Assembly (NCBI RefSeq): GCF_002355375.1
Contig: NZ_AP017312.1
Location: 2,931,001 to 2,995,000 of the forward strand
Direction: 5' to 3'
Source: Aneurinibacillus soli
Lineage (GTDB): Bacteria; Bacillota; Bacilli; Aneurinibacillales; Aneurinibacillaceae
DNA: 64,000 bases
This document shows, piece after piece, positions 46,217 to 57,133 of this stretch. The position numbers and the translations under genes were made by a program. A model generated the notes under the pieces. It ran no database searches and was not told where the DNA came from. It saw only the letters and a list, made by a program, of their open reading frames with translations. Numbering within the stretch: position 1 is the stretch's first letter; every line of letters starts with the position of its first letter.

Positions 46217-46413
46217 ATCATATCCACATTCGTCATGGGCATGCTTGTCCTCTGTCTCGGTCCTTATCGGCTCAGAGCAGATTTGCATTACGTATTTATA
46301 AATCATTCCAAAAAAATAAAAAAAGGCATGTCTGGTGCCGCTCGTATGATACAGCCCTGACATCCCCATTATAAAACAACTTCAAAACAAACCGCAATGC
46401 TTTTACGTCCAAA

Positions 46414-53800: not shown

Positions 53801-54664
53801 CTACATACGCTGCAATTTATCCGGGTTCCGTACAAAATAAAGGCTCACAATTGCATCATTCTCTACATGGATAAGCACTACGGTCTGGATCACACCCGCT
53901 GCTCGAATGACTAACCCGGTCTGGCCATTCAGCTGTGTCCGCTCGATTTGAACGCCTTCTTCGTAATAAGAGACCTTTTGAATCAGACCAAAGAGGAAGT
54001 GAGCCACACGCTCAGACGTTTCGATCGGATGAACTGCAGCCGATGCTTTCCCACCGCCGTCCGATACAAGTACGACGTCCTCAGCAAGCAAAGACAGTAC
54101 GGAATTAATGTTATTTTGCGTAAGTGCCGCAATGAACCGCTGTACCCATTCTTCTCCCGCCGCCTCGGCTCTAATCGGCTCTTCTTCGGAAATCCCCATT
54201 TTCCCCCGAGCACGGCTCATCAGCTTGCGGCAGTTCACCTCACTTTTGTCAACAAATTCAGCAATGATTGGGTAATCAAAGCAAAGCGCTTCTCGCAAGA
54301 CAAATATCGTTCGCTCGGCCGGAGACAACCGCTCAAGCAGCACAAGCATGGCATACGACAACAAATCGCTGCGGACGACAGATTCGAATCCATCTCCATC
54401 CGGGGTTGCTATCGGCTCAGGGAGCCATGGACCCACATACTGTTCCCTCCATCTTCGTGCCGATTTAAGTAGATCGAAACAGCGATTCGTGACCATTTTG
54501 CACAAATACGCTTTCGGTTCCTCCAGATGGTCGAGATGCAACTTGTAAACTTTCATAAATACATCTTGAACCACGTCCTCCGCGTCCGTAACCGAACCAG
54601 TCAATTGATAGGCAAGCGTAAACAGCAGCGCCTTATATTTCTGGTAAAGTTCTGTCATCCCCAT
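53801..54664 (-). CDS. ECF41-type RNA polymerase sigma factor with SnoaL-like C-terminal domain
   Basis: 287 aa, about 100 more than a normal ECF sigma. Region 2 (about 5-75, YQLTGSVTDAEDVVQDVFMKVY), region 4 (about 110-160, LSPAERTIFVLREALCFDYPIIAEFVDKSEVNCRKLMSRARGK), then a SnoaL-like domain (about 170-285) carrying the ECF41 marks DGGGK and, at the C terminus, NPDKL. In ECF41 proteins this tail controls activity in place of an anti-sigma factor. GGAGGGGGG precedes the ATG. It lies 26 nt downstream of an NADH-dehydrogenase-like gene, its presumed target; a matching promoter is at 56330-56356. Confidence 0.92.
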   Translation of the reverse strand: MGMTELYQKYKALLFTLAYQLTGSVTDAEDVVQDVFMKVYKLHLDHLEEPKAYLCKMVTNRCFDLLKSARRWREQYVGPWLPEPIATPDGDGFESVVRSDLLSYAMLVLLERLSPAERTIFVLREALCFDYPIIAEFVDKSEVNCRKLMSRARGKMGISEEEPIRAEAAGEEWVQRFIAALTQNNINSVLSLLAEDVVLVSDGGGKASAAVHPIETSERVAHFLFGLIQKVSYYEEGVQIERTQLNGQTGLVIRAAGVIQTVVLIHVENDAIVSLYFVRNPDKLQRM

Positions 54665-54690: not shown

Positions 54691-55881
54691 CTACTGTACT
54701 AAACTTGCAGAATCCCAGGTGAACTTTCTAATTTTTAAGCCAAGTTTTCCCGTGAGTACAAAGTCTAGTCCCCATTGACGAGCCCATACCAGCCCCTGTT
54801 CCGGGCCCAAACCGATGCAGAAGAGATCCATATACGCCTGATGAGAAGGAGCCGGGCGATTGCTCAAATCTGCCGCGATCACTTTTGCTAGTCGATTTGC
54901 TTGCGGAATTGCTTCCTTACACGTCATCCTGTCCGTCCGACCACTTACCGGATCTGTAATGTGGGCACAGTCCCCAATACTGTAAACGCCTTGTACCTCT
55001 TTGACACGATAACTGGCATCTACAGCAATCTGACCATCGGGTGTGAGTGGCAATCCGAAGCTGCGAAGTGCAGGATTAGGCAGCAGACCGAGCGTCCAGA
55101 TACATAAGCCGACAGGAATTGGCTTGCCATCAGCCAGCAACAGCCGACCGTCCTTCTCTTGCACGGCTTTGCACCGATGAAGAACTGTGACTCCATTACG
55201 CGTAAGAGCACGTTCTAGTTTTCGTCCTACCTTAGCGGGGCCTTCTGGAAAAAGCCTATCCTGCGCATTAACAAGGAAAATTCGAATGTCTGCCGGATCA
55301 AGTTGTAGAGCTACGGCTTCCTGGCGCATAGCGTAACCCAATTCAGCGGACGTCTCAATGCCGCTAATACCTGCGCCCGCAACCGCAACAGTCAGCAATC
55401 GTTGACGTTCAATCGTATCTGTTTCATTAGTTGCCGCAAGCAAATTCTCCTGCCAGCGCTGTCGGATGCTAGCCGCAGCATTCAAGTCTGTGAGAGCCAT
55501 TCCACCCTGCTCAGGGGACGGCTGCCGGATCACGCTGCCAACTGCAACAACCAGAATATCATAGTTTATATGGTGTGAAATCCCTTCAACGTCTTCATAT
55601 TGCAGTCGTTTTTCCTGGCTTCTAATCGTCGTTACCGTACCTTGAAGGAAGGAAACCCCCTCTGAAAATATCCCTGACCAAGGAATTGTAATCGTTGCGT
55701 CTTCGGTAGCCGGTTTAAATAACAGCACTTTTCTCAGATGATAAGGCTGTTTATCAATCAGAATAATCCGCAGTGGGATCCCGTGTGTAGTTTTTCTAAT
55801 GGCGTTAATTGCATTAATCCCAGCGTATCCGCCACCAATAATGATGCATGTTCGTTCTTTCATGTTTTGCGGACAGGACAC
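54691..55881 (-). CDS. FAD-dependent NAD(P)H oxidoreductase (NDH-2-like)
   Basis: 396 aa from GTG. Two Rossmann motifs: IIIGGGYAGINAINAI for FAD (about 12-27) and VAVAGAGISGIETSAEL for NAD(P)H (about 163-179); the closing FAD motif is GVYSIGDCAH (about 293-302). No C-terminal membrane anchor as in true NDH-2 is obvious. Neither the GTG (55879-55881) nor the internal ATG (55861-55863) has an adjacent ribosome site: a 416-bp insert begins at the next base. Removing it would restore AAAAGGAG 11 nt ahead of this GTG. Confidence 0.88.
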   Translation of the reverse strand: MSCPQNMKERTCIIIGGGYAGINAINAIRKTTHGIPLRIILIDKQPYHLRKVLLFKPATEDATITIPWSGIFSEGVSFLQGTVTTIRSQEKRLQYEDVEGISHHINYDILVVAVGSVIRQPSPEQGGMALTDLNAAASIRQRWQENLLAATNETDTIERQRLLTVAVAGAGISGIETSAELGYAMRQEAVALQLDPADIRIFLVNAQDRLFPEGPAKVGRKLERALTRNGVTVLHRCKAVQEKDGRLLLADGKPIPVGLCIWTLGLLPNPALRSFGLPLTPDGQIAVDASYRVKEVQGVYSIGDCAHITDPVSGRTDRMTCKEAIPQANRLAKVIAADLSNRPAPSHQAYMDLFCIGLGPEQGLVWARQWGLDFVLTGKLGLKIRKFTWDSASLVQ

Positions 55882-56297
55882 TCGCGACTTCAGTCATGAG
55901 AGGAATGGACGCTACAAAAACGGTGGGGGCGATCGACCTCATCAAGTTTTTGTACATCCCTACCATACCCTGTCCTTCCTCCTTTGTTCGTAGTATAATG
56001 AGAACAAGAGAAAACCGTTGGGTAGCTTTGCTACTAAAGGCACTCTTTGTTCTTGGACAACTCAATGTATGAGGTTGGTAGCAGGAAGTCGTTACTACCG
56101 TAAAACATTGAACGAATAACAGAAATCCGTCCATCGTGGAAAGTGAAGTACTGATGACGGTGACTATATAGGCAGGACCTGTATAGTCGGGCAGTGTCAA
56201 CTCGCCTATCGTACCGCCACGCTAAGGAAGGAGTCTCACGGCGTTTGCACTTCCGGGCAGTTACAAGCTTGCGACTTCAGTCGTGAGTAATTGACAC
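55882..56297 (+). mobile_element. 416-bp insertion with an IS200/IS605-like end
   Basis: The right end reads TTGCGACTTCAGTCGTGAG then TAATTGAC, resembling the subterminal hairpin (CGACT/AGTCG) and TTGAC terminus of IS200/IS605-family elements; the preceding ~110 bp could be an omega-RNA-like scaffold. A similar CGCGACTTCAGTCATGAG sits at the left end. GACAC occurs at both junctions (55877-55881, 56293-56297). No transposase or TnpB frame is present, so it would be non-autonomous. Family assignment is from memory of such ends and is moderate. Confidence 0.6.
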
Positions 56298-56301
56298 AAA
56301 T

Positions 56302-56356
56302 CCACTCCTTTTAGCTGATTTGCACATATAACGACATGCCTAGTCAGTTTGTGACA
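56302..56356 (-). promoter_or_regulatory. ECF41-type promoter and stranded ribosome site of the oxidoreductase gene
   Basis: Minus strand: TGTCACA (56350-56356), 16-bp spacer, CGTT (56330-56333), against the published ECF41 consensus TGTCACA-N16-CGTC. Twenty nt further is AAAAGGAGTGG (56302-56312). Both now lie more than 400 bp before the oxidoreductase start because of the insertion at 55882-56297. Confidence 0.7.
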
Positions 56357-56386
56357 TGAACGCAAGAAATTAGCTTACCTTTTTAG

Positions 56387-56427
56387 ACAAAAATAAAGGC
56401 CACCTACCGCATTTGGCAGGTGGCCAT
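56387..56427 (-). terminator. Terminator of the DJ-1/PfpI gene
   Basis: GGCCACCT (56398-56405) and AGGTGGCC (56418-56425) pair perfectly; TTTATTTTTG follows on the minus strand. It lies about 125 bp after the DJ-1/PfpI stop. Confidence 0.8.
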
Positions 56428-56551
56428 ACTATTCCTATTTAACTGTATCGCTTTGGTTTGCTATGCTTCACACTACGCTATACAGCGTATGAGACACTAT
56501 TGAAGAATAATAAAATCTCCGATATAAGCGTTATTATTGAACGGTATTAAA

Positions 56552-57133
56552 TTATGGTGTAACTACACCAACGCTATAATAAGGATAATCCATTTGCTTT
56601 TGGATTCTCATTACGGCTTCTTTTCCGGCAAAAAGTTCGCAGATATACAGCCCAAGATCAACCGATGTGGCTACGCCTCCCCCGGTAATGATGTTTCCAT
56701 CCCTTACAATTCGCTCGTTTTTTATCTGCTCGGTATATAAACTAAGAAGAGCCGAAGCACTTGGATGAGTCGTTGCCTTTTTTCCTTCTAAGAATCCAGC
56801 AGCTCCTAAAAGGAGAGAACCGGTACATACAGAAACTTTATATGGTACTTCTTTCGCCGTCTTTATCCAATCAATAAACTCAGGTACATGAATTAGTGTT
56901 CTGGTCCCCATCCCACCAGGGATAAATATCAAATCATATGCTGATAAATCTGGACGTACGTTATGTACATTGTATGTAATCCCACGATCATCATTTACTT
57001 GCTCACTAAAAGCACACAAATCCCAACTCAAATCTTCGATAAACCCCATTGTTTTTAATCGGGTAATGCCATCATAAAAGCCTACAAAGTCTAGAGATGT
57101 AACTTGTTCAAAAAGAATAAAAGCAATTTTCAC
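56552..57133 (-). CDS. DJ-1/PfpI superfamily protein
   Basis: 193 aa, complete. Class-I glutamine-amidotransferase-like fold with the nucleophile elbow VCTGSLLLGAAG (Cys about 103) followed by KATTHPSA; N-terminal IAFILFEQVTSLDFVGFYDGI with the conserved Asp. This layout is closest to isonitrile-hydratase-like or ThiJ/PfpI proteins; activity is not certain. The gene is more AT-rich than its neighbours, and B. subtilis has nothing here between ypjC and ypjB, so recent acquisition is plausible. Confidence 0.85.
   Translation of the reverse strand: MKIAFILFEQVTSLDFVGFYDGITRLKTMGFIEDLSWDLCAFSEQVNDDRGITYNVHNVRPDLSAYDLIFIPGGMGTRTLIHVPEFIDWIKTAKEVPYKVSVCTGSLLLGAAGFLEGKKATTHPSASALLSLYTEQIKNERIVRDGNIITGGGVATSVDLGLYICELFAGKEAVMRIQKQMDYPYYSVGVVTP

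Follow-up and report, generated by a model that had tools for sequence, protein, structure and literature searches.

MITE-like derivatives of the IS200/IS605 family are known from haloarchaea as PATEs; these are gene-less and carry both ends of a larger relative. Members of the family itself insert beside a fixed target, without duplicating it, and bear subterminal hairpins, as described in excerpts of PMC8612924 and PMC7290912. The targets given in the excerpts of PMC8612924 are TTGAT for ISDra2 and TTAC for IS608, and the guide of the ISDra2 reRNA is given there as about 16 nt of flanking DNA. For ECF41 sigma factors, PMC3426412 describes a WLPEP linker motif, operons of the order COE>ECF with the promoter ahead of the COE gene, a spacer of 16 ± 1, and a −10 element that reads TGTT or CGTC in the two mapped promoters.

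The window, which is the whole stretch of 64,000 nucleotides that was analyzed, lies in the closed 4.12-Mb genome (G000) of Aneurinibacillus soli and brings these two systems together. Very probably, a gene-less element related to IS200/IS605 (IS1341 type) inserted there on the 3' side of TTTCAT and displaced the promoter and ribosome site of an oxidoreductase gene, with the effects on expression that are predicted below. The features of the locus are as follows.

53801–54664, minus strand: sigma factor of ECF41/SigJ type, encoded second in the operon and preceded by its own ribosome site (Pfam, TIGR and SigJ models; WLPEP)
54691–55863, minus strand: pyridine-nucleotide-disulphide oxidoreductase with native start ATG (Pfam Pyr_redox_2; start set by genome G006)
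55858–55863, plus strand: target TTTCAT, the reverse complement of ATGAAA, the first two codons of the gene
55864–56295, plus strand: non-autonomous IS200/IS605-type element, 432 bp (empty site in G006; second copy)
55881–55900, plus strand: left-end subterminal hairpin (from the sequence)
56268–56287, plus strand: right-end subterminal hairpin (from the sequence)
56302–56312, minus strand: ribosome site AAAAGGAGTGG of the native leader, its distance to the start codon increased by 432 bp
56330–56356, minus strand: ECF41-type promoter TGTCACA-N16-CGTT (boxes and spacing kept in G006)

The major evidence for the insertion was an empty site in a relative. The oxidoreductase was present in 2 of 7 genus genomes including its own (E ≤ 1e-60) and in the same 2 among 11 family genomes (E ≤ 1e-80), while a scan of genome contigs with the oxidoreductase as query found no relative. 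G006, with a protein identity of 91%, was the only relative among those genomes to have the gene, and the ancestral state is for this reason deduced from one genome. At the orthologous locus of G006, AAAAGGAGTGGATTTGT is followed directly by ATGAAAGAACG, and the joined flanks of the window align to the G006 leader, AAAAGGAGTGGATTTGTATGAAAGAACG, with no gap across the joint. Since this empty site fixes both edges, the element was assigned to 55864–56295 (432 bp), with the left end at 55864 and the right end (TTGAC) at 56295; it adjoins TTTCAT on the 3' side of the target on the plus strand, and no target duplication was found. A search of G006 for the element gave no match.

The initial annotation had placed an insert between the ribosome site and the gene, and this was borne out by the same promoter, leader and gene standing without it in G006, the sole relative with the gene, where the stretch is not a native leader. 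The edges proposed there, 55882–56297 (416 bp), had been drawn on a common GACAC, which is indeed present at both 55877–55881 and 56293–56297; they differ from ours because they represent one register of this short chance repeat. The GTG start that had been assigned to the gene (55881–55879) proved to be element sequence, found also in the second copy, and the native start was reassigned to the ATG at 55863–55861, which in the empty site follows GGAG at a distance of 9 nt.

The element contains no gene, neither tnpA nor tnpB, and instead of terminal inverted repeats it has subterminal hairpins at both ends in the same orientation. Together with the fixed target and the lack of a duplication, these hairpins uphold the IS200/IS605-like identity that was first suggested, and the element is a gene-less, MITE-like relative of IS200/IS605, a kind already known. 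It resembles ISDra2, IS608 and the tnpB-only elements of the IS1341 type in inserting on the 3' side of a short fixed target that is not duplicated, in its subterminal hairpins, and in sharing its genome with a tnpB element whose ends are related to its own; it differs from them in being without tnpA and tnpB and in its target, TTTCAT. With PATE-type MITEs it shares the absence of genes and the possession of both ends of a larger relative, but it has retained about 150 nt of omega-RNA-like sequence at the right end, and both of its full copies in the window genome lie directly before start codons. Since the element carries no transposase, it would have been moved in trans by a Y1 transposase. 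No Y1 (HUH) gene is present in the element; two are found elsewhere in the genome, with ends that were not matched to the element, and one of these is near a left-end-like sequence that follows TTTTTAT.

Three matches to the element were found in its own genome, namely the element itself, a 433-bp copy of 90.8% identity, and, at a tnpB gene, a match to the right end (75%). The second copy, also after a ribosome site, stands directly before the ATGAAA start of a 114-residue protein for which there was no Pfam match, and this gene has an exact empty site in G006, GGGAGGAACAAATCATATGAAAAAA. The tnpB element is 1423 bp long, follows TTTCAT, and encodes a TnpB with OrfB_IS605 and TNB domains; its site is empty and intact in G006. 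This gave three exact empty sites in G006 (two full copies and the tnpB element), all 3' of TTTCAT and without duplication. The tnpB-only element (L003 1502–2924; G000:C1:3620780–3622202) interrupts a gene in the window genome, which we take to resemble that of a sulfate-binding protein.

When 11 family genomes were searched with a pattern for the left end that allowed up to 3 mismatches, 7 places were found in 3 genomes, compared with none for the reversed control in the same 11, and all seven left ends follow TTTCAT. Two more distant left ends, L009 and L013, which did not match the pattern and are outside the seven, follow TTTAT, and the TTTCAT target was therefore deduced to be specific to this subgroup.

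Smaller and partial forms were also observed. Genome G001 has three 45-bp mini-elements (L010 at approximately 1503–1547, L012 at approximately 1501–1545, and L019 from 1499), each standing after TTTCAT and consisting of a left end, a single hairpin and a right end fused together. If the mini-elements moved in this form, they would be mobile units of very small size; alternatively, they may be deletion scars. The one at L019 stands at the position where the homologous gene of the window genome has about 300 nt replaced. Pieces of the element middle (approximately 56006–56113) were seen in differently ended sequences at L008 1501–1545 (G005) and L009 1501–1557 (G002), and apparent compensating changes in one stem suggest that they are possibly another structured RNA module.

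The right end of the element was compared to the right ends of tnpB elements, with which its last 156 nt align, and three further features were assigned.

56140–56295, plus strand: right-end scaffold resembling an omega-RNA, homologous to the corresponding end of the tnpB element
56162–56188, plus strand: covarying hairpin of the scaffold (four sequences)
56296–56315, plus strand: flanking DNA where an omega-RNA would have its guide; antisense to the displaced ribosome site (putative role, from its position and the analogy with ISDra2)

The scaffold is 75% identical to the right end of the 1423-bp tnpB element, which has the same target TTTCAT. In the covarying hairpin, 95.5% of cells were paired and 4 of 11 pairs had changes on both sides, and one compensating pair change falls between the two MITE copies. 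Scored jointly, the two hairpins gave a covariation of 0.368 versus 0.263 in shuffles, of which 1 in 500 was as high, and slid partners gave at most 0.123; these values come from four sequences, and the structure tested was the fold of one of them. L007 was omitted from this four-row scaffold alignment because its end hairpin differs. The folding energy of the scaffold was ordinary (z −1.06). The element thus shares with the TnpB reRNA or omega-RNA a scaffold at its right end whose homologue is the 3' end of a tnpB element, and a flank in guide position; it differs in having no tnpB in cis, and both transcription of the scaffold and its use in trans are putative here. From these comparisons, the right end may be an omega-RNA for a TnpB encoded elsewhere in the genome. 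A search of Rfam with 55850–56400 gave no match at E values up to 1. Over the whole window, Rfam gave a single match at gathering threshold, the 'pan' motif at 46248–46358 on the minus strand, with 45.6 bits, above the gathering score.

For the displaced promoter, the sequences reported in the initial annotation, TGTCACA-N16-CGTT at 56356–56330 and AAAAGGAGTGG at 56312–56302 on the minus strand, were both located. The promoter boxes, the ribosome site and the gene order are all conserved in G006, where the boxes and their spacing are identical and a hand count gave differences at 3 of the 16 spacer positions. Across the whole genome, TGTCACA-N15-17-CGTY gave 9 matches versus 8 for the reversed control, which is the level of chance, and the promoter call is therefore based on where the site lies, on gene order and on its conservation in G006 rather than on the rarity of the pattern. 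The oxidoreductase and sigma genes are separated by 26 nt in a minus-strand operon, and in G006, too, the sigma gene comes after the oxidoreductase. The sigma factor contains WLPEP and extends approximately 130 residues beyond region 4, an extension for which there was no Pfam match; it scored 323.7 with TIGR02957 (cut-off 323.25) and was also above the cut-off of the SigJ model NF007214. The earlier proposal that the oxidoreductase is an ECF41 target is supported by the COE>ECF order and by the promoter before the first gene, both as in PMC3426412, and on these sequence features the oxidoreductase is a probable target. The operon resembles that of Bacillus licheniformis ydfG (PMC3426412) in the TGTCACA-type promoter before the COE gene, in the COE>ECF order and in the WLPEP sigma factor; it differs in that the leader is interrupted in the window genome.

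The proposed course is that the element landed directly 3' of TTTCAT on the plus strand, opposite the ATGAAA of the oxidoreductase. Compared to G006, the start codon was kept and the ECF41-type promoter and the ribosome site were moved 432 bp away. The transcript would now have a leader of approximately 460 nt. Upstream of the ATG there is now the left-end hairpin followed by 17 nt in which no ribosome site could be read by eye, and poor translation of the oxidoreductase is therefore likely. The sigma gene has a ribosome site of its own, from which translation could continue, and an omega-RNA role of the right end would help to hold the element in place. The reading frame of the oxidoreductase is intact despite the element upstream, and comparison of its 391 codons with those of G006 gave 60 silent and 36 residue-changing differences. 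These data show no sign of decay, and the insertion may be recent or the oxidoreductase may still be useful.

The strongest alternative is that the element itself carries a promoter or ribosome site directed outward through its left end, such that the gene stays on or escapes ECF41 control. This was deemed improbable, although the intact oxidoreductase frame would agree with it and both copies have a strong ribosome-site-like AAAGGAGGAAGG on the minus strand, with a short frame behind it that runs through the left end without a stop. That frame overlaps the gene but is out of frame with it, the spacing on its start side differs by one base between the copies, and most of its residue-level differences change the residue (own reading). 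In addition, a simple consensus scan of the minus strand from 55600 to 56600 gave no sigma-70-type promoter. The initial annotation had also allowed for translation from within the insert, and no good candidate was found among the frames. The nearest upstream stop in the oxidoreductase frame lies within the left-end hairpin, and the only in-frame ATG, GTG or TTG between that stop and the ATG is the GTG at 55881–55879, which by eye has no ribosome site.

As a candidate in its own right, the short minus-strand frame was also considered as a conserved protein and was rejected on comparison of the copies, of which there are two only.

A second alternative, in which the stretch belongs natively to the operon as a regulatory leader (riboswitch-like or an attenuator) and was lost by G006, would account for the structured nature of the stretch and for a gene also following the second copy. 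It was considered very unlikely because the second copy precedes an unrelated gene, G006 shows an exact empty site for each copy, its ends match those of a tnpB element sitting inside a coding gene, and Rfam gave no match; it is largely refuted already by the three exact empty sites with one target. Least likely of all is an IStron-like element that is spliced from the transcript to restore the leader. IStrons do join a group I intron to IS605-type ends, but 55850–56400 gave no match to such an intron at E values up to 1, and the gene reads the strand opposite the omega-RNA-like strand.

Under the preferred interpretation, insertion of a gene-less element, the nature of the target deserves comment. 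As TTTCAT is the reverse complement of ATGAAA, an insertion at such a start spares the protein and strips away the ribosome site. The two full copies are both wedged between a ribosome site and an ATGAAA start, and a link between target and start codon, which comes from these two cases, is suggestive only. ATGAAA was counted as start-like when it had a ribosome site and opened a frame of at least 80 aa; this applied to 28 of 433 occurrences in a 400-kb genome sample (15 of 433 under a stricter rule) and to 1 of 52 in the window. Among the elements, 2 of 7 were at starts, and at 28/433 the chance of that number or more is approximately 7 in 100 by our own arithmetic. Selection against insertions inside genes would raise this figure, and a bias beyond target choice plus selection is thus not established. 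The coincidence of TTTCAT and ATGAAA is simple arithmetic, and in the open-licence literature no paper was found that states it. That literature likewise yielded no paper with both IS200 and TTTCAT and none combining MITE, IS605 and omega RNA, and the excerpts of PMC7290912 make no mention of a start codon or MITE.

We hypothesized further that TTTCAT elements are start-codon-addressed and that omega-RNA MITEs reuse TnpB to re-impose themselves, which would make a recurrent gene-uncoupling switch; this extension is tentative and in our judgment rather doubtful. If true, a TnpB borrowed in trans would re-impose the MITEs on alleles lacking them, using a guide against the ribosome site of the gene itself, and the gene would be uncoupled from its promoter and ribosome site with the protein untouched. 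More generally, a short transposon target can bias the landing place within a gene. For the ECF41 circuit, a type studied for its built-in regulation, the insertion means that expression of the target enzyme is probably impaired and that the sigma gene is kept.
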